Made by a program: the position numbers and the translations under genes. From the NCBI GenBank assembly GCA_030690515.1, contig JAUYGP010000403.1:1-32599 (forward strand): DNA of 32,599 nucleotides, in the 5' to 3' direction. Numbering within the stretch: the stretch's first letter is position 1; each line of letters opens with the position of its first letter. The notes under the pieces were generated by a model, which was not told where the DNA came from, made no database searches, and was given only the letters and a program-made list of their open reading frames with translations. Of this stretch, positions 2,287 to 30,587 are shown piece after piece. This stretch comes from Giesbergeria sp. (GTDB taxonomy: Bacteria > Pseudomonadota > Gammaproteobacteria > Burkholderiales > Burkholderiaceae_C).

Positions 2287-3765
2287 ATGAGCCTGTTGCG
2301 CCCCCGCCTGCGGGCGATGACCTCGGACCTGCGTAACCGGCTGCTGTTGCTGCTGGTGCTGCCCCTGTGCGTGCTGGCGCTGCTGGGTGCCTGGATGGAT
2401 TACCGTTCCGCCGACGAGGCCGCCTCGCGCCACGACCAGCGCCTGCTGCGCCTGCTGCCGGCGCTGGCCGACTCGGTGCTGGCGCGCGGGGCCGACGAGG
2501 GGGACGTCCCGGTCTGGCTGCTGGCCCCGCCCGTAGAGGACTTCTTGCGCCACAGCAACTACACCAGCTACAGCGTGCGCGATCTCTCGGGTCGTCTGCT
2601 GCTGGGCGATGAATGGGTGCACGGCGCGGTGCCGGCCACGCTGGAGCCGGAGTTCCACAGCGTGGAGTTCAGCGGCGTCACCTACCGGGTGGCTGTGCAG
2701 CGGGGGCGCACGGGGGCGGGCGAGTTGGTGGTCGCCCTGGCCGATGGCACCGACCCGCGCCAGCAATGGGCGCAGCACCTGCTGCTGCGGGTGCTGCTGC
2801 CCAACCTGGTACTGGTGGCAGCGGCGGCGCTGGCCATCCATTGGGCGGTGCGCCGGGCGTTTAAGCCGCTGGTCGATCTTGCAGCTGCTGTGGAGCGGCG
2901 CTCGCCGCGCGACCTGAGCGCCATCGACGAGGCGGCGTCACCGTCCGAGGTGCGCCCGCTGGTGCACTCGCTCAACCGCCTGTTCACCATGGTGAATGCG
3001 CAGGCCGAGAGTCAACGCCGCTTCGTGGCCGATGCCGCGCACCAGTTGCGCACCCCGCTGGCAGGCCTGCAGGCCCAGGTTGAAGCCTGGGCCATGCTGG
3101 CGCGCTCCGGAGTGAAAACAGTGGATGGAGCGGCAGGTTCAAGGTCAAATAGGCCTCCAGGGCAATACGGGCAAGCGGTATCAGCTATTACATTAGGAGC
3201 ATCAGAGATTGAGAAGCTGCGCGATGCCACCCGCCGCACCTCGCAACTGGCGCACCAGTTGCTGGCGCTCTCGCGGGCTGATGCACGTAGCCTTGATGGC
3301 CAGACCATGCAGCGGGTGGATTTGCAGGATCTGTGCGAGACCATGCTGGAGATGTTTCTTGACGCGGCCACCGGCAAAGGCATCGACCTGGGGCTGGAGG
3401 CCCAACCTGCCCATGTGATGGGGCATGGCTGGCTGCTGCGCGAACTGCTGTCAAACCTGGTGGACAACGCCATCAAGTACACGCCGACCGGGGGCAGTGT
3501 CACCATTCGTTGTGGCACGCAGCCGGGGCCGCAGGGAAGCGTGTGCGCCACCTTGCAGGTAGAAGACGACGGCGCTGGCGTGTCGCCTGCCGAGCGCGCA
3601 CGGGTACTGGAGCGTTTTTACCGGGTGCCGGGCACCGTGGGCGAAGGTACCGGCCTGGGTCTGCCCATTGCCGATGAGATCGCCCGCGCCCACGGGGCCC
3701 TGCTCACGCTGGCAGATGGCGGCAATGGCCGCGGCTTGTGGGTGGTGCTGGTGTTCCCCGCCTGA
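2287..3765 (+). CDS. Two-component sensor histidine kinase with a repeat-derived insertion in the DHp domain
   Basis: Inner-membrane kinase of 492 residues, partner of the regulator just upstream. Order: first membrane helix about 18-36, periplasmic part to about 165 (TctE/QseC-like 2CSK_N type), second helix about 166-187, HAMP-like linker, HisKA helix with phospho-acceptor His252 in AAHQLRTPL, N box (LLSNLVDNAIKYTP), G1 (EDDGAGV) and G2 (GTGLGLPIADEI). Residues about 276-305, between the two DHp helices, are encoded by low-GC DNA with TTA, AGG and ACA codons and contain a 58-bp repeat copy; relatives as I remember them have a short turn here. The frame stays open and all catalytic boxes are present, so activity may be kept. 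Start: ATG at 2287; the upstream part of the track ORF overlaps the regulator. Confidence 0.88.
   Translation: MSLLRPRLRAMTSDLRNRLLLLLVLPLCVLALLGAWMDYRSADEAASRHDQRLLRLLPALADSVLARGADEGDVPVWLLAPPVEDFLRHSNYTSYSVRDLSGRLLLGDEWVHGAVPATLEPEFHSVEFSGVTYRVAVQRGRTGAGELVVALADGTDPRQQWAQHLLLRVLLPNLVLVAAAALAIHWAVRRAFKPLVDLAAAVERRSPRDLSAIDEAASPSEVRPLVHSLNRLFTMVNAQAESQRRFVADAAHQLRTPLAGLQAQVEAWAMLARSGVKTVDGAAGSRSNRPPGQYGQAVSAITLGASEIEKLRDATRRTSQLAHQLLALSRADARSLDGQTMQRVDLQDLCETMLEMFLDAATGKGIDLGLEAQPAHVMGHGWLLRELLSNLVDNAIKYTPTGGSVTIRCGTQPGPQGSVCATLQVEDDGAGVSPAERARVLERFYRVPGTVGEGTGLGLPIADEIARAHGALLTLADGGNGRGLWVVLVFPA
3141..3198 (+). repeat. Family-A palindromic repeat, copy 1 (inside the sensor kinase)
   Basis: This 58-base segment aligns without gaps to the intergenic copy at 14746-14803: both begin AGGTCAAA, continue GGCCTC-AG-GC, and share AGCTATTA near the right end. 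The central inverted arms are decayed here. It lies within an AT-richer insert (about 3112-3206) in the kinase gene. The same tetranucleotide GGAG occurs just outside both ends of the insert, too short to call a target duplication with confidence. Confidence 0.7.
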
Positions 3766-5402: not shown

Positions 5403-7115
5403 ATGCCCACGTACACACCGCCCCTGCGCGACATGCAGTTTGTGTTGCACGAAGTGTTCAAGGTTGCTGACGATCTCAAGCAAATCCCCAAGCATGCCGA
5501 CATGGATGCCGACACCATCAATGCCGTTCTGGAAGAGGGTGGCAAGTTTGCAACCGACGTGGCGTTCCCGCTGAACATCAGCGGCGATGCCGAGGGCTGC
5601 ACCATCGACCAGGCCACCCACGCGGTGACCACGCCCAAGGGTTTCAAGGAAGCCTACGCCAAATACGTCGAGGGTGGTTGGGCGGCACTGGGCTGCGACC
5701 CTGAATTTGGCGGCCAGGGCCTGCCTTTCGTGGTCAATACCATGTTCTACGAAATGCTCAACAGCGCCAACCAGGCCTGGACCATGTACCCCGGCCTGAC
5801 CCATGGCGCCTACGCGGCCCTGGAGACCCACGGCACGCCCGAGCAGAAGGCCACCTACCTGCCCAAGATGACCAGCGGCGAGTGGACAGGCTCCATGTGC
5901 CTGACCGAGCCCCACTGCGGCACCGACCTGGGCCTGATGCGCACCAAGGCCGAGCCCCAGGCCGACGGCACCTACAAGATCACTGGCAACAAGATTTTTA
6001 TCAGCGCCGGTGAGCACGACATGGCCGACAACATCATCCACCTGGTGCTGGCACGCCTGCCTGATGCGCCTCCCGGCATCAAGGGCGTGAGCCTGTTCAT
6101 CGTGCCCAAGGTTCTGGTGAACAAGGACGGCTCTTTGGGTGAGCGCAACGGTATCTACTGCGGCGGCCTGGAGCACAAGATGGGCATCAAGGCCAGCGCT
6201 ACCTGCCAGATGGTGTTGGAAGACGCTGTCGGTACCCTGGTGGGGCAGCCGCACAAGGGCATGCAGGGCATGTTCGTGATGATGAACGCCGCACGCCTGG
6301 GCGTGGGCAACCAGTCGCTGGGCCTGACCGAAGTGGCTTACCAGAACGCCCTGGCGTACGCCAAGGACCGCCTGCAGATGCGTTCTTTGAGCGGCACCAA
6401 GGCCAAGGACAAGCCGGCCGACCCCATCATCGTGCACCCCGACGTGCGCAAGATGCTGCTCACCGCCAAGGCCTACGCCGAAGGTGGCCGTGCGCTGCAG
6501 ATTTTCTGCGCCATGCTGCTGGAAAAAGAGCACAACCATCCCGATGAAAAGGCCCGCAAGGAGGCGGGCGAACTGCTGGCCCTGTTGACCCCCATCGCCA
6601 AGGCCTTCCTGACCGACAACGGCCACACCGCCACCAATGCCTGCATGCAGGTCTTTGGCGGCCATGGCTACATCAAGGAATGGGGCATGGAGCAGTTTGT
6701 GCGCGACAACCGCATCAACATGATCTATGAAGGCACCAACACCATCCAGTCTTTGGATTTGCTGGGCCGCAAGATTCTGGGCAACAACGGCGCCACGCTC
6801 AAGAAGTTTGGCAAGCTCGTGGGCGCCCTGGTGCAGGAAGAAGGCGTGAACGAGAAGATGGCCGAGTTCATCAACCCGGTGGCCTACCTGGCGGACCAGA
6901 TGACCAAGTTCACGACTGAACTGGGCTTCCGCGGCATGCAGAACCCTGATGAAGTGGGCGCTGCCGCTGTGGACTACCTGCGCGTGGCCGGTCACCTGGT
7001 GTTTGGCTACTTCTTCGCCCGCATGGCCCAGGTGGCACTGCGCGAGATCGCCGCGGGCAACACCGATCCGTTCTACCAGGCCAAACTGCAGACGGCGCGC
7101 TTCTACTTTGCCTAG
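5403..7115 (+). CDS. Acyl-CoA dehydrogenase, C-terminally truncated by an in-frame amber
   Basis: FAD enzyme that introduces the 2,3-trans double bond into acyl-CoA, the first step of beta-oxidation. Visible parts: N-terminal helical extension, MCLTEPHCGTDLG (flavin/substrate loop, about 160-175), KITGNKIFISAGEHD, and YEGTNTIQSLDLLGRKI with the likely catalytic base Glu443. A C-terminal extra helical domain follows, so this belongs to the roughly 600-residue FadE-like class. The frame stops at TAG (7113-7115) after 570 residues, but the same frame continues for 27 family-like codons to TGA at 7197-7199. The loss affects only the C-terminal tail, so the enzyme may still fold. A good AAGGAG precedes the ATG. 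Confidence 0.9.
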   Translation: MPTYTPPLRDMQFVLHEVFKVADDLKQIPKHADMDADTINAVLEEGGKFATDVAFPLNISGDAEGCTIDQATHAVTTPKGFKEAYAKYVEGGWAALGCDPEFGGQGLPFVVNTMFYEMLNSANQAWTMYPGLTHGAYAALETHGTPEQKATYLPKMTSGEWTGSMCLTEPHCGTDLGLMRTKAEPQADGTYKITGNKIFISAGEHDMADNIIHLVLARLPDAPPGIKGVSLFIVPKVLVNKDGSLGERNGIYCGGLEHKMGIKASATCQMVLEDAVGTLVGQPHKGMQGMFVMMNAARLGVGNQSLGLTEVAYQNALAYAKDRLQMRSLSGTKAKDKPADPIIVHPDVRKMLLTAKAYAEGGRALQIFCAMLLEKEHNHPDEKARKEAGELLALLTPIAKAFLTDNGHTATNACMQVFGGHGYIKEWGMEQFVRDNRINMIYEGTNTIQSLDLLGRKILGNNGATLKKFGKLVGALVQEEGVNEKMAEFINPVAYLADQMTKFTTELGFRGMQNPDEVGAAAVDYLRVAGHLVFGYFFARMAQVALREIAAGNTDPFYQAKLQTARFYFA

Positions 7116-7199
7116 CTGTTCCCTGAAACGGCGACACTGATGCGCACCGCGCGTACTGGCGCCAAGGTGCTGATGGACACTGATCTGGCTCTGGCCTGA
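7116..7199 (+). pseudogene. Detached C-terminal tail of the acyl-CoA dehydrogenase
   Basis: Directly after the TAG at 7113-7115 the same reading frame encodes LFPETATLMRTARTGAKVLM and a short tail ending DLALA, then TGA. This matches how full-length members of the family end as I remember them (FYFAKLFPETA-type), so the TAG replaces a sense codon, probably AAG or CAG. It is either a real nonsense mutation, a sequencing error, or a site of readthrough. Confidence 0.7.
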
Positions 7200-7224
7200 T
7201 CGGTGATTTTTGCGGATTTCAAGC

Positions 7225-7275
7225 TTTTTTACTCTGGAGTGCCCATGAATAAAGCGCTAGCAGCTATTGTTTTTG
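7225..7275 (+). repeat. Family-A palindromic repeat, copy 2 (start region of the DUF2147 gene)
   Basis: The segment TTTTTT-A-CTCTGG...AAGCGCTAGCAGCTATTG lines up with the intergenic copy after the ABC transporter (TTTTTTGG-CTCTGG...AAGCGCAAGCAGCTATCA) and with the right arm GCGCTAG-TAGCTATTA at 14779. A gap of about two bases in the centre is needed. It contains the GGAG ribosome binding site (7236-7239), the ATG at 7245 and the codons for the signal-peptide core. Confidence 0.55.
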
Positions 7276-7682
7276 CAGTGATTGCCGCCCCCACGTGGGC
7301 CCAGATGACGCCCGAAGGTCTGTGGCGCAACATCGACGACAAGACCGGCGAGGCCAAGGCGGAAATCCGTATCAAGGACAACGGCACCGGCGCCCTGAAT
7401 GGTGCGTTGGAGAAGCGCCTGGCCAAGGATGCCAAGCCCGACGACCTGTGCAAGGAATGCAGCGACGACCGCAAGGACAAGCCGCTGCTGGGCCTGGAGA
7501 TCATCCGCAATGCCAAAAAGGCTGAGGGCAGGGACGTGTGGGAGGGCGGCAAGATTCTCGACCCCGAGAACGGCCGCAACTACACGCTGCGCATGACGCC
7601 CATCGAAGGCGGCAAGAAGCTGGAAGTGCGCGGCTCCTTCGGCCCCTTTGGCCGTACGCAAACCTGGACACGCGTCCAGTAA
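7245..7682 (+). CDS. DUF2147 family exported protein
   Basis: A 145-residue protein with a clear Sec signal peptide (MNKALAAIVFAVIAAPTWA, cleavage probably after A19) followed by MTPEGLWRNIDDKTGEAKAEIRI, which is the start of a DUF2147 domain: a small beta-rich periplasmic domain of unknown function. Two cysteines (LCKEC) could form a disulfide. It ends GSFGPFGRTQTWTRV, also typical of the family. The start is ATG 7245 with GGAG five bases ahead; the track's GTG at 7203 would place residues before the signal peptide. The start region looks repeat-derived. It lies between acyl-CoA dehydrogenase and the bifunctional enzyme, so it is probably in the same operon; a link to fatty-acid uptake is only a guess. 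Confidence 0.82.
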   Translation: MNKALAAIVFAVIAAPTWAQMTPEGLWRNIDDKTGEAKAEIRIKDNGTGALNGALEKRLAKDAKPDDLCKECSDDRKDKPLLGLEIIRNAKKAEGRDVWEGGKILDPENGRNYTLRMTPIEGGKKLEVRGSFGPFGRTQTWTRVQ

Positions 7683-7762: not shown

Positions 7763-10162
7763 ATGTCTAGATTTCAAGTGAAGAAAGTCGCCGTGCTGGG
7801 CGCGGGCGTGATGGGCGCGCAGATTGCTGCGCACCTGGTCAACGTCAAGGTGCCGGTGGTGCTGTTTGACCTGCCGGCCAAGGAAGGCCCCAAGAACGGC
7901 ATCGTCACCCGTGCCGTCGAAGGCCTGAAGAAGCTCAAGCCCTCGCCGCTGGGCGTGGCGGACGATGCTGCGCTGATCGGCCAGGCCAATTACGAAGAGC
8001 ATCTGGAGCAACTGCGCGACTGCGACCTCATCATTGAGGCCATCGCTGAGCGCATGGACTGGAAGCTCGATCTGTACAAAAAGATCGCGCCTTTCGTCAA
8101 TCCGAACGCCATCGTGGCGTCCAACACCTCGGGCCTGTCGATCACGAAACTGAGCGAAGCACTGCCTGAGAATATCAAGCCACGTTTCTGCGGCATCCAC
8201 TTCTTCAACCCACCGCGCTACATGACGCTGGTGGAGTTGATCGATACCCCCACCACCGCCCCTGAGGTGCTCGACCAGCTCGAAGCCTTTGTCACCAGCG
8301 GTCTGGGCAAAGGCGTGGTGCGCGCGCACGACACCCCCAATTTTGTCGCCAACCGCGTCGGTATTGCCGGCATGCTGGCCACGATGAAGGAGGTCGAGAA
8401 CTTTGGCCTGACCTTTGACGTGGTGGACGACCTCACCGGCAGGAAGCTCGGCCGCGCCAGCAGCGGCACCTTCCGCACGGCCGACGTGGTGGGCTTGGAC
8501 ACGATGAACCACGTGATCAAGACGCTGCAGGACAACCTGGACGAAAAGAGCGATCCGTTCTACGGCAGCTTTGAAACCCCTGCCGTGCTCAAGAAGCTGT
8601 TGGAGCTGGGTAACCTGGGCCAGAAAACCAAGGCAGGTTTCTACAAGAAGGTGGGCCGCGACGTTCTGCGTTTTGACCTGGAAGGCGAAGAGTACGTGCC
8701 CGGCGGCCAGAAGGCCGACGAGGTGTACGGCCGCATGTTGAAAAAACCTGCTGCCGAGCGCCTGAAACTCCTGCGCAATGCCGAAGGCGCGCAGGGCCAG
8801 TTTCTGTGGGCCATTTTGCGCAACAGCTTCCATTACGCTGCCGTGCACTTGGGCACGATTGCCGACAACGCCCGCGACATTGATCAGGCCATGCGCTGGG
8901 GCTTCGGCATGAAGCAGGGCCCGTTCGAGCTGTGGCAAGAGGCTGGCTGGCTTGACGTGGCGAAGATGATCCAGGAAGACATCGACGCGGGCAAGTCACT
9001 GTCCAAGGCGCCGCTGCCTGAGTGGGTCTTCAAGGGCCCCGTGGCCGAGGCCGGTGGCGTGCACACCGCGCAAGGCTCCTGGAGCGCATCCAAGGCAAAG
9101 TTCATCCCGCGCCGCGAGTTGCCGGTGTACGAGCGCCAGCATTTCCCCGAGGCGCTGCTGGGCGAGACCCTGCCCGACTACAAGACGGCGGGCAAGACCC
9201 TGCACGAAGACGACGCCATCCGCCTGTGGACGCTGGACGACGAAGTGGTGATCGCCAGCATCAAGACCAAGATGCACGCCATCAGCCCCGACGTGGCCGA
9301 GGGCCTGGCCATGGCGGTCGATATTGCCGAGAAGGACTACAAGGCCGTGGTGGTGTGGTCGGGCGACGAGCCCTTCAGCGCCGGTGCCGACCTGCAGGCC
9401 ATGCTGCCCGCGTTCATGATTGCGGGTGTCAGCGCCATTGAGGGCGCCGAGCAGGAGCTGCAGAACACCATGCTGCGCCTGCGCTACGCCGGTGTGCCCG
9501 TGGTGTCGGCCATTCGTGGCCTGGCGCTGGGCGGTGGCTGCGAGCTGGCCGTGCACTCAGCTCGCCGCGTGGTGCACATGGAAAGCTACATCGGTCTGGT
9601 CGAAGTGGGCGTGGGCCTGGTGCCCGGCGCTGGTGGCCTGACCTATATCGCCCGCCGCGCCGCCGAGAACATGGCGCAGTCCACGTCCAAGGACGTGCTG
9701 CCTTTCCTGACCGAAGGCTTCACTGCCGCCGCCATGGCCAAGGTGGGCACCAGTGCGCTGGAATCGCGCAAGCTGGGCTTCCTGCTCGAGAGCGATGTCA
9801 TCGTGCCGCACAAGGACGAACTGCTGTTCGTCGCCCTCAACGAAGCCAAGGCCATGGCCCGGGGCGGCTGGCGTGCACCGCACAAGCGGCTGTTCCCGGT
9901 GGCTGGCCGCAGCGGCATTGCCACCATCAAGGCGCAGTTGGTCAACATGCGCGACGGCGGCTTCATCAGCGCACACGACTTCCACATCTCCAGCCTGATC
10001 GCAGGCGTGGTGTGTGGCGGCGACGTAGACGCCGGTGCCTTGGTCAGCGAGGAATACCTCATGGCCATGGAGCGCAAGGCCTTCTGTAGCCTGATCACCC
10101 ATCCCAAGACGCAGGAACGTATCCTGGGCATGCTCAGCACCGGCAAGCCGGTTCGCAACTGA
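7763..10162 (+). CDS. 3-hydroxyacyl-CoA dehydrogenase / enoyl-CoA hydratase fusion (FadN-like)
   Basis: Bifunctional beta-oxidation enzyme of 799 residues: hydrates trans-2-enoyl-CoA and oxidises the resulting 3-hydroxyacyl-CoA with NAD. The dehydrogenase comes first: GAGVMG (13-18) is the NAD-binding loop, IEAIAERMDWK and NTSGLSI the substrate region, and HFFNPPRYM carries the catalytic His. The crotonase domain is about 495-690, with FSAGADLQAML as oxyanion segment, Glu594 in GGGCELA and Glu614 in GLVEVGVG. These two glutamates lie 20 residues apart, as in rat crotonase, so hydratase activity is expected. Domain order is the reverse of E. coli FadB and like Bacillus FadN. ATG 7763 follows GGAGAAAC and is preferred to the in-frame start at 7736. 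Confidence 0.92.
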   Translation: MSRFQVKKVAVLGAGVMGAQIAAHLVNVKVPVVLFDLPAKEGPKNGIVTRAVEGLKKLKPSPLGVADDAALIGQANYEEHLEQLRDCDLIIEAIAERMDWKLDLYKKIAPFVNPNAIVASNTSGLSITKLSEALPENIKPRFCGIHFFNPPRYMTLVELIDTPTTAPEVLDQLEAFVTSGLGKGVVRAHDTPNFVANRVGIAGMLATMKEVENFGLTFDVVDDLTGRKLGRASSGTFRTADVVGLDTMNHVIKTLQDNLDEKSDPFYGSFETPAVLKKLLELGNLGQKTKAGFYKKVGRDVLRFDLEGEEYVPGGQKADEVYGRMLKKPAAERLKLLRNAEGAQGQFLWAILRNSFHYAAVHLGTIADNARDIDQAMRWGFGMKQGPFELWQEAGWLDVAKMIQEDIDAGKSLSKAPLPEWVFKGPVAEAGGVHTAQGSWSASKAKFIPRRELPVYERQHFPEALLGETLPDYKTAGKTLHEDDAIRLWTLDDEVVIASIKTKMHAISPDVAEGLAMAVDIAEKDYKAVVVWSGDEPFSAGADLQAMLPAFMIAGVSAIEGAEQELQNTMLRLRYAGVPVVSAIRGLALGGGCELAVHSARRVVHMESYIGLVEVGVGLVPGAGGLTYIARRAAENMAQSTSKDVLPFLTEGFTAAAMAKVGTSALESRKLGFLLESDVIVPHKDELLFVALNEAKAMARGGWRAPHKRLFPVAGRSGIATIKAQLVNMRDGGFISAHDFHISSLIAGVVCGGDVDAGALVSEEYLMAMERKAFCSLITHPKTQERILGMLSTGKPVRN

Positions 10163-14668: not shown

Positions 14669-14745
14669 AGGCTTGAGTCTCTCGGGCGGCCCGCGCCGCA
14701 GGCCGGGTCCGGTGTCCTGCAATTCTGTGCACACACAGTACTTTT

Positions 14746-14803
14746 AGGTCAAAATGGCCTCTAGCGCCTATGTATATTGCGCTAGTAGCTATTAAAACAG
14801 AAG
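14746..14803 (+). repeat. Family-A palindromic repeat, copy 3 (intergenic, best preserved)
   Basis: AGGTCAAAATGGCCT followed by perfect inverted arms CTAGCGC (14761-14767) and GCGCTAG (14779-14785) around an AT-rich 11-base loop, then TAGCTATTAAAA. It is the reference copy in this window. It stands in the 184-base spacer between the isomerase-like gene and the thioesterase at 14853; the remainder of that spacer shows no gene. Confidence 0.75.
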
Positions 14804-14852
14804 CAATCGATGTCGGTGCCGTGCGCCGGTACCGTGCCCATCCAGGACCCCC

Positions 14853-18080: not shown

Positions 18081-19904
18081 ATGCGCCACCGCGGCGAATC
18101 GTCCCCCCCCCCAACCCCTGGCGCCACGGCGCGCACACGCTCTGACTGGGCCACGCTGGGTCGCCTGTTGCCCTATTTGTGGCAGTACAAGTGGCGTGTG
18201 CTGGCCGCACTCGCCTTTATGGTGGGAGCCAAGCTGGCCAATGTCGGCGTGCCACTGCTGCTCAAAAAGTTGGTCGATGCGATGGCGGTGCCGCCCGGCG
18301 CCGTGACCGCGCTGCTGGTGGTGCCCGTCGCGTTGCTCCTGGGCTACGGCGCCTTGCGCTGGACGACGTCGCTGTTCACCGAGCTGCGCGAACTGGTATT
18401 TGCCAAGGCCACGCAGGGCGCCGCGCGCAGCATCGCACTAAACACCTTCCGGCATTTGCATGCGCTCAGCCTGCGCTTTCACCTGGAGCGCCAGACGGGT
18501 GGCATGACGCGCGACATTGAGCGCGGCGTGCGCGGTATCGAGTCGCTGATCTCGTTCGCCCTGTTTAACATCGTTGCCACGCTGGTCGAGGTGGTGCTGG
18601 TGCTCTCCATCCTGGGTTCGCGCTTCGACATGTGGTTCGTCTGGATCACGCTCGGCGCGCTGGTGGTGTACATCACGTTCACGGTGGTCGTTACCGAGTG
18701 GCGCACCAAGTTCCGGCGTGAGGCCAACGCGCTGGATTCTGCAGCGCACACCAAAGCCGTCGATTCTTTGTTGAACTATGAAACCGTCAAATACTTCAAC
18801 AACGAAGAGTTTGAGGTACGCCGCTACGACGAAAGCCTGGAAGGCCTGCGCCGTGTGCGGCTCAAGAGCCAGAGCACGCTGTCCATGCTCAACAGCGGGC
18901 AGCAGGCCATCATTGCCACCGCACTGGTGGCCATGCTGTGGCGCGCCACACAGGGCGTGGCCGATGGCCGCATGACGCTGGGCGACCTGGTCATGGTCAA
19001 CGCCTTCATGATCCAGATCTACATCCCGCTGAACTTCTTTGGCGTGATCTACCGCGAGATCAAGCAGAACCTCACCGACCTGGACAAGATGTTTACGCTG
19101 ATGGACCGTGAGCGCGAGGTGGCCGATGCACCGGGCGCAGAGCCGCTCCACATCGCCGCTGGCACCAGCCCGGCGGTGCGTTTTGAAGACGTGCACTTTG
19201 CCTATGAACCTGACCGCCCCATTCTGCGCGGCGTGAGCTTTGAGATACCGGCAGGCAAAACGGTGGCTGTGGTGGGGCCGTCGGGTGCGGGCAAATCCAC
19301 GCTGGCGCGGCTGCTGTTTCGTTTCTACGACATTCAGCAAGGCCACATCAGCCTGGCCGGGCAGGACATGCGCGACGTCACGCAGGCCAGCGTGCGCCAA
19401 GCAATCGGCATCGTGCCGCAGGACACCGTGCTGTTCAACGACACCGTGGCCTACAACATCGCTTATGGGCGCCCCGGCGCCACCCAGCAGGAAGTCGAGC
19501 AGGCCGCGCGCGCTGCGCACATCCACAACTTCATAGCGTCCACGCCCAAGGGTTACGACACCATGGTGGGCGAGCGTGGCCTTAAGCTCTCGGGCGGAGA
19601 GAAGCAGCGCGTGGCCATCGCCCGCACCTTGCTCAAGAACCCGCCCATCCTGGTGTTCGACGAGGCCACCTCCGCCCTCGATTCAGCCAACGAGCGCGCC
19701 ATTCAGGCCGAACTGCGCGGCGTGGCCCGCGGCAAGACCACGTTGGTGATTGCGCACCGCCTCTCCACCGTGGTGGACGCGCACGAAATTCTGGTCATGG
19801 AAGCCGGCCAGATCATCGAGCGCGGCACGCACGCGCAGTTGCAGGCTGCAGACGGGCGTTATGCGCGCATGTGGGCGATGCAGCAGTCTGGCGATGCGGT
19901 TTGA
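18081..19904 (+). CDS. Atm1/HMT1-type ABC transporter, fused permease and ATPase
   Basis: A 607-residue half-transporter that would work as a homodimer in the inner membrane. The membrane domain (about 35-340) has six helices; NYETVKYFNNEEFEVRRYDESL is a hallmark of the Atm1/HMT1 class, which exports glutathione-linked or sulfur-containing compounds and metals. The ATPase has Walker A GPSGAGKST (399-407), the Q-loop region, signature LSGGEKQR (503-510), Walker B ILVFDEATSALD and the switch His in VIAHRLST. All catalytic motifs are intact. ATG 18081 is used rather than the TTG at 18072. The substrate is inferred from class only. A family-A repeat begins almost directly after the stop. Confidence 0.9.
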   Translation: MRHRGESSPPPTPGATARTRSDWATLGRLLPYLWQYKWRVLAALAFMVGAKLANVGVPLLLKKLVDAMAVPPGAVTALLVVPVALLLGYGALRWTTSLFTELRELVFAKATQGAARSIALNTFRHLHALSLRFHLERQTGGMTRDIERGVRGIESLISFALFNIVATLVEVVLVLSILGSRFDMWFVWITLGALVVYITFTVVVTEWRTKFRREANALDSAAHTKAVDSLLNYETVKYFNNEEFEVRRYDESLEGLRRVRLKSQSTLSMLNSGQQAIIATALVAMLWRATQGVADGRMTLGDLVMVNAFMIQIYIPLNFFGVIYREIKQNLTDLDKMFTLMDREREVADAPGAEPLHIAAGTSPAVRFEDVHFAYEPDRPILRGVSFEIPAGKTVAVVGPSGAGKSTLARLLFRFYDIQQGHISLAGQDMRDVTQASVRQAIGIVPQDTVLFNDTVAYNIAYGRPGATQQEVEQAARAAHIHNFIASTPKGYDTMVGERGLKLSGGEKQRVAIARTLLKNPPILVFDEATSALDSANERAIQAELRGVARGKTTLVIAHRLSTVVDAHEILVMEAGQIIERGTHAQLQAADGRYARMWAMQQSGDAV

Positions 19905-19908
19905 GTGT

Positions 19909-19960
19909 TTTTTGGCTCTGGCGCTTTCTGGGCAAGCGCAAGCAGCTATCAAATACGGAG
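19909..19960 (+). repeat. Family-A palindromic repeat, copy 4 (3' of the ABC transporter)
   Basis: TTTTTTGGCTCTGGCGCTT, then GGGCAAGCGCAAGCAGCTATCAAA. It matches copy 3 with a one-base deletion in the left arm and starts within a few bases of the ABC transporter stop. The convergent TRAP terminator follows at once. Confidence 0.65.
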
Positions 19961-19964
19961 TGAA

Positions 19965-29847: not shown

Positions 29848-30587
29848 ACGCCACCCCCATCGACTGGGATGCGCCCTGGCTGGAACCGTGGAACGTGCGC
29901 GGGCGTGCGCTGGCCGGGCGCCTTTACGATGGCGTGCCGGTCTGCCAGGCGCTGAACGCGGACGCCGCCGCACCGGTGCGCTTCGTGTCCCAGGCCCTGC
30001 TGCCGCCGGGCATGGCGTATGAGCAGTTCATCTTTGACACCGGCCAGGTGCCCACGCGCGAGAACCTGCACGACTTTTTTAATGGACTGGTGTGGCTGCA
30101 CTTGCCGCAGGCAAAGCGCCGCATGAACCAGTTGCAGGCGTAGGCCATTGCCGCGCAGGGCGTGGGAGCGGTGCGCGGGCCGCTGCGCGATGCGCTCACG
30201 CTGTTTGATGAAAACGGCGCCCTGCTCGATGCGCCCGCGCCGCTGTGGCAGGCGCTGCGCGCACGGGACTGGCAGCGGTTGTTCGTCGATCTGCGCCCGC
30301 TCTGGGTGCAGGCGCGGTTGCTGCTCGTCGGACATGCGCTGATGGAAAAACTGGTTTTTCCCCGAAAAGGCATCACAGCGCACGTCTATCAAGCGCCTGC
30401 AGCTATTGAAACCATAGCGCAAACGGATGCCTGGCTGGCCGCAGAGCTGCAGCCGGACCGCTGGGCGCAGAAACCTTTTGTTTCTTTGCCTCTCATGGGG
30501 ATACCGGGCTGGTGCCATGGGAACGACGCGGTTTCCTTCTATGATGACCTTTCGGTTTTTCGCCGCGCAGCAGCCCGCCCGGCTTGA
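29832..30587 (+). pseudogene. DUF3025 family gene interrupted by an in-frame amber codon
   Basis: One continuous frame of 251 codons plus stop, opening at GTG 29832 inside the end of pyrC. It is interrupted by a single TAG at 30141-30143. Before it: IDWDAPWLEPW, FVSQALLPPGMAYEQFIFDTGQVPTRENLHDFFNGLVWLHLPQAKRRMNQLQA. After it, in the same frame: AIAAQGVGAVRGPLRDALTLFDENGALL, LMEKLVFPRKGITAHVY and GIPGWCHGND. Both parts match the DUF3025 family as I remember it, and the joint RMNQLQA-x-AIAAQG is just where the family continues. GAG or CAG to TAG is the simplest change. Function of the family is unknown. The second part could restart at GTG 30162 but would be only half a domain. Confidence 0.8.
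30384..30416 (+). repeat. Family-A repeat, partial copy 5 (inside the DUF3025 frame)
   Basis: TATCAAGCGCCTGCAGCTATTGAAA resembles the right half of the family-A element (GCGC-x-x-GCAGCTATT-AAA). The left half is absent. It falls in a variable region of the protein, just after the conserved ITAHVY segment, and keeps the frame open. Short enough that chance similarity is possible. Confidence 0.4.

Follow-up and report, generated by a model that had tools for sequence, protein, structure and literature searches.

How does a protein-coding gene come to begin inside a copy of repetitive DNA? The question is raised by a DUF2147 gene in the window, the 32,599-nucleotide stretch of Giesbergeria sp. 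DNA analysed here. An earlier note had proposed, from the letters of this DNA, that a copy of a palindromic repeat supplies this gene with its ribosome binding site, start codon and signal-peptide core, and that the element can act as a ready-made secretion start. Our main reading, to which we give a probability of about 0.88, is that a repeat copy was captured as the translation start of DUF2147 in an ancestor of related genera and was then tuned. The gene and its neighbours are arranged as follows.

5403 to 7200, + strand: acyl-CoA dehydrogenase gene, upstream neighbour (ORF; orthologues read through to ...DTDLALA)
7245 to 7682, + strand: DUF2147 gene, 145 aa, with a predicted Sec signal peptide MNKALAAIVFAVIAAPTWA, then Q (PF09917 E=4.4e-27; synteny)
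7763 to 10162, + strand: fadB-like 3-hydroxyacyl-CoA dehydrogenase/enoyl-CoA hydratase gene, downstream neighbour (ORF translation; synteny)

The gene belongs to DUF2147 with a PF09917 match of 95.3 bits, against a gathering cut-off of 27, over residues 25–143, the mature domain. By inspection, MNKALAAIVFAVIAAPTWA-Q fits the n-region charge, the h-region and the small cleavage-site residues of a signal peptide, a pattern kept in the orthologues, and the protein is predicted to be exported by Sec. The upstream gene has an in-frame TAG at 7113–7115, which removes roughly the final 28 codons of the acyl-CoA dehydrogenase, while the frame runs on (LFPETATLMRTARTGAKVLMDTDLALA) to 7200 as in orthologues; the TAG is either a nonsense change or an assembly error.

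The repeat is abundant in the 3.5-Mb genome from which the window comes. Its 14-mer core, GCGCTAGCAGCTAT, has 129 matches there with at most one mismatch, against 1 for the reversed control, and the 17-mer AAGCGCTAGCAGCTATT occurs 5 times in the window at up to three mismatches, where shuffles predict 0.11. Aligned copies give an element consensus of ~66 bp, roughly ATTTTGAATNAAAAATGGCCTCTAGCGCTTATGNNTAAGCGCTAGCAGCTATYAAWTTNATAGT, with a hairpin stem of 9–11 bp (the copies in the hairpin covariation test were those chosen by an exact right arm), and with a covariance model the genome yields at least 150 copies, every one with E ≤2e-7. Among the copies in the window are the following.

14742 to 14808, + strand: ordinary intergenic repeat copy (nhmmer E=1.7e-14; covariance model E=2.7e-14)
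19900 to 19963, + strand: ordinary intergenic repeat copy (nhmmer E=6e-12)
30376 to 30423, + strand: degenerate repeat copy inside the ORF at 30162–30587 (nhmmer E=4.7e-4)
3142 to 3203, + strand: second in-frame repeat copy, in a histidine kinase gene, in the linker beside the HxLRTPL region (nhmmer E=1.1e-7; orthologues)

Among the genomes tested, the hairpin repeat is confined to Comamonadaceae: it is carried by 31 of 61 genomes, covering most of those in the window's own genus and part of its family, and is absent from all 24 genomes of other Burkholderiales families. Three genomes placed in the same genus (G002, G008 and G005) have no repeat copies or almost none, as well as no DUF2147 match, reflecting either wholesale repeat loss or a loose genus grouping. 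Rfam returned nothing in the window, and searches of the open-access literature by family name or by sequence found no description of a Comamonadaceae repeat, the sequence giving unrelated matches; as far as that literature was searched, the family is apparently undescribed.

As for where the copies sit, a survey of 96 distinct copies in the window genome (G000), made with a simple codon-usage gene caller, places 81 of them between genes (55 tandem, 17 convergent, 2 divergent and 7 at contig edges) and 9 inside ORFs, while 5 supply a gene stop and 1, that of DUF2147, supplies a start. Divergent gene pairs are thus avoided, and this scarcity, together with the copies that give a stop codon region, is as expected of transcript-end elements. 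The copy number, the short stem, the extragenic placement and the rarity between divergent as against convergent genes all liken the Comamonadaceae repeat to REP sequences, which occur in >100 copies per genome as short hairpins, mostly between genes and rarely between divergent ones (PMC2817692). With regard to a RAYT link, two Y1_Tnp genes are present in the window genome, and no convincing repeat copies were found flanking them, the best flanking match scoring 12.2 bits. The copy in the histidine kinase gene lies in a variable linker and is read K-A-x-A-A-I-T-L in several relatives; it is common to relatives across the genus and thus looks like an old in-frame capture too.

The copy at the DUF2147 start can be divided into the following parts.

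7217 to 7284, + strand: full-length ~66-bp repeat copy at the DUF2147 start (nhmmer alignment 7238–7284, envelope 7218–7288, E=2.1e-8)
7230 to 7244, + strand: former left hairpin arm, with CTCTAGCGCTT as its probable ancestral form and now ACTCTGGAGTGCCC; Shine–Dalgarno motif (SD) GGAG at 7236–7239 (sequence)
7245 to 7247, + strand: start codon ATG, probably from the hairpin loop, which is CTTATG in many copies (sequence)
7251 to 7267, + strand: right arm AAAGCGCTAGCAGCTAT, coding for K-A-L-A-A-I of the signal peptide (0 mismatches to the repeat core; nucleotide-level conservation)
7268 to 7282, + strand: repeat 3' tail TTGTTTTTGCAGTGA, coding for V-F-A-V of the hydrophobic core (compare the intergenic copies L003, L017 and L030, with GCTATTGTTTTTG)

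The earlier note had placed the SD, the start codon and AAGCGCTAGCAGCTATT (7252–7268) exactly; the gene copy is longer than it stated, as the repeat tail TTGTTTTTGYAG / TTGTTTTTGCAG is present too. The nhmmer profile behind these values was trained on 28 other copies from the window genome, with the gene copy left out. When the left, SD-bearing half is scored alone, the window copy is not significant (p=0.08), while p≤0.05 is reached in 31 of the 62 orthologues, a tree-defined set related by descent and not independent, with 26 of them at 1/60. The left half is clear in L071 and L073, where 0 of 60 shuffles were as good, and the left arm is clearest in L073 (CCCTGGAGCGCTTATG, against GCCTCTAGCGCTTATG in the repeat).

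Both neighbouring genes are syntenic in 106 of 110 DUF2147 loci, and repeat DNA opens the syntenic DUF2147 gene in Acidovorax, Simplicispira, Giesbergeria, Comamonas, Paracidovorax, Oryzisolibacter and others, with a more decayed version at the Polaromonas and Hylemonella starts. Against the profile from the window genome's intergenic copies, L073 scores 39.5 bits (E=1e-9 per 3.5 Mb), L071 36.7 and L124 34.8; the orthologous copies align over the full length (model positions 6–75), and their reversed-sequence controls reach ≤4 bits. L073, from Acidovorax temperans, is nearest to the unmodified element: ATTTCAAGCATTTTTGCCCTGGAGCGCTTATGTATAAAGCGGTAGCAGCTATTATTTTGGTAGCA. In Ramlibacter, Caenimonas and the deeper outgroups no repeat-profile match is found at the DUF2147 start, and L116, on the Ramlibacter/Caenimonas side, retains a weakly matching remnant, at 8.8 bits. 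A tree of 92 loci, built from the neighbours and mature DUF2147 with FastTree supports and a midpoint root, requires 7 changes of the repeat-start trait, and nearly all of the 62-row clade as well as the Polaromonas clade carry it. The comparison of orthologues that the earlier note had suggested thus leaves its repeat-derived start standing, in several genera. In Ramlibacter and Caenimonas most DUF2147 starts share 4 nt with the upstream stop, and in the deeper outgroups a gap of 26–62 nt, devoid of the repeat, precedes the gene. Among the loci of all these groups no clean empty site was found; Ramlibacter was rejected as one, since a gap is present in the deeper outgroups as well.

Could the resemblance have arisen independently of any repeat? 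A K-A-L-A-A-I signal peptide written in A/T-rich early codons would resemble the repeat anyway, by chance or convergence, and in GC-rich bacteria early codons are commonly A/T-rich. Codons 2–11 of fadB are likewise lowered (60% G/C in third positions, as against 23% in codons 3–11 of DUF2147 and 88% in the rest of that gene). In addition, a similar peptide is encoded by different DNA, with repeat DNA not recognisable, in a minority of Acidovorax species (L085, L098, L099 and L105) and in Variovorax L134; the Acidovorax cases imply no strict need for the repeat sequence. Against chance, however, stand the exact 17-bp identity with the tail in addition, the full-length match in L073, and third positions that follow the repeat letter by letter, in its own order (GCA then GCT), instead of being random A/T; also, DUF2147 is the only repeat-derived start among the 96 copies. 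The model from the other copies puts the window start at E=2e-8 and orthologous starts at values down to 1e-9 per 3.5 Mb, and its reversed controls are essentially empty. The match thus lies far above chance, genome-wide as well as in the profile scores, and chance similarity, rejected on those scores, is exceedingly improbable; as far as sequence can establish it, the gene start is homologous to the repeat. The opposite direction of descent, in which the repeat family grew from the DUF2147 leader copied around the genome, draws on the fact that right arm and tail are common to leader and repeat and that the root is not readable from sequence alone. The hairpin, however, is near-perfect in intergenic copies (−16 to −19 kcal/mol) and not in gene leaders (−4 to −10 kcal/mol). 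G028 and G035, with 41 and 45 repeats respectively, have an unrelated DUF2147 start, which argues that the repeat does not depend on the gene for its existence, and independent in-frame copies occur in the histidine kinase gene and others. We thus consider an origin of the family in this gene very unlikely, and infer that the direction was from repeat to gene.

A third possibility concerns not the origin of the start DNA but what has kept it alike, namely gene conversion with other copies instead of selection on initiation or on the peptide. Synonymous agreement among the orthologues is mostly 0.65–0.95 and drops to 0.3–0.5 at codon 12, so that strong conservation stops at the repeat's end, as conversion would have it. 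Furthermore, in L063, L064 and L079 of the Giesbergeria group, the left flank has switched to resemble the A-rich repeat subtype, not the T-rich one, with a spacer of 29 nt instead of ~45, which is possibly the result of recombination with another repeat copy. On the other hand, GCGGTAGC (Val) is found consistently in the gene copies of Acidovorax but in a minority of the intergenic copies of the window genome, and the left arm of the gene keeps GGAG, which is absent from ordinary copies; both speak for vertical descent, and conversion as the conserving force is unlikely.

The capture of a repeat copy by DUF2147, our preferred reading, would have proceeded as follows. A copy would have come to the 5' end of the gene, between the acyl-CoA dehydrogenase gene and fadB, in an ancestor shared at the least by the Acidovorax/Simplicispira/Comamonas lineage, and probably by that of Polaromonas as well. 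The hairpin-loop CTTATG would have provided the start codon, and a change of the left arm from CTCTAGCGC to CTGGAGCGC or similar would have made the SD and at the same time broken the hairpin that would hide it. The right arm, AAAGCGNTAGCAGCTAT, would have become K-A-L/V-A-A-I and the tail V/I-F-V; together, as AAAGCGNTAGCAGCTATTGTTTTTGTAG, they would read K-A-L/V-A-A-I-V-F-V, the n-region and most of the h-region of the predicted Sec signal peptide. The c-region and cleavage site would have been supplied from outside the repeat, where the predicted signal-peptidase region (APTWA-Q) lies. Lastly, the A/T-rich repeat codons would keep the initiation region weakly folded. The proposal that a palindromic repeat copy supplies the SD and start codon, together with this part of the signal peptide, is thus borne out by the profile match and the orthologous starts.

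The orthologues retain much of what such a history would have left. An SD-like motif is present in 56 of the 62, and the conserved signal core is read M-x-K-A-L/V-A-A-I from the right arm. The repeat's own codons are kept, with GCT for Ala7 in 57 of 62, GCA for Ala6 in 49 and GTA for Val11 in 40, while elsewhere in the gene GCT and GCA make up 20 and 15 of 438 Ala codons and GTA 3 of 368 Val codons; this retention, like the loss of the hairpin, is read from the sequences themselves. Each of the 62 leaders is more weakly folded than its own synonymous recodings are on average, with a median of 2.5% of recodings being as weak, and weak folding at initiation is likely to be sufficient reason for keeping A/T-rich repeat codons in a GC-rich genome. 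One may speculate that the repeat core is in addition selected as nucleic acid, beyond coding and weak folding, because it is still a binding or processing site for whatever recognises the other copies, which number in the hundreds. We find this doubtful; if true, a single stretch of DNA would serve three ends at once, as a regulatory site of the repeat family, as a region that binds ribosomes and as a signal for secretion.

The part of the earlier note that did not hold is the idea of a ready-made secretion start, in the sense of a module. An exact search for the SD–ATG–right-arm pattern, in one orientation, gave 13 matches in 251 genomes of the family, all of them DUF2147, and 0 for the reversed control. 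With only one of the 96 surveyed copies forming a gene start, this points to one old capture and not to a recurrent module, and a reusable secretion module was rejected on the two surveys. Nor would a consensus copy be ready-made, since it has no SD, its ATG is hidden by a stable hairpin, and many loop variants have a TAA that closes the frame.

The closest precedent found is the Yersinia RU-2/YPAL element described by Delihas, a ~168-bp MITE in YPO1552, a putative new protein of two Yersinia species (PMC2229807). There too, a small palindromic mobile repeat lies in frame, and a putative exported protein owes part of its predicted signal peptide to it (PMC2229807). The Comamonadaceae case differs in that a ~66-bp element provides SD, ATG and signal core to a conserved syntenic Pfam gene in many genera, where the hairpin is dismantled and conservation extends to the nucleotide level, and the DUF2147 capture is much deeper. 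Rickettsia palindromic elements (Ogata et al.), of 100–150 bp, are mostly known as internal insertions, going by the passages of PMC10969869 and PMC2229807 that treat them. The likeness to these, as so described, is one of placement: a palindromic repeat is tolerated in frame in protein genes, here in the histidine kinase at 3142–3203, a copy found genus-wide, and several copies span ORFs. Unlike the Rickettsia elements of those passages, the Comamonadaceae repeat is mainly intergenic (81 of 96 surveyed copies).

The sole catalogue trace of the repeat that we found is Pfam PF06231 (DUF1010), whose profile positions 1–28 correspond to the repeat translated in another frame, VFLASSA..ASASSY..SS, different from the DUF2147 frame (LMxKALAAI). 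DUF1010 is listed among the protein families whose function is unknown and is not marked as a repeat, and repeat copies of the window genome score up to 23 bits against it, below the cut-off of 25 and over profile positions 1–28 only. That DUF1010 is partly translated repeat DNA matters for annotation. A DUF1010 ORF in an integron cassette between dfrA12 and aadA2 (L216:498-788, E. coli plasmid pP11b) contains a repeat copy, which suggests that the cassette came from Comamonadaceae.

REPs and MITEs are usually regarded as neutral or regulatory DNA, and, to our knowledge, repeat contributions to protein starts have so far been anecdotal and evolutionarily shallow. The capture described here is traceable over many genera, and the steps from repeat DNA to a functional gene start can thus be compared between species. 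Judged from these comparisons, the DUF2147 start would be a rare, deeply conserved example of bacterial repeat DNA that has become working gene sequence.
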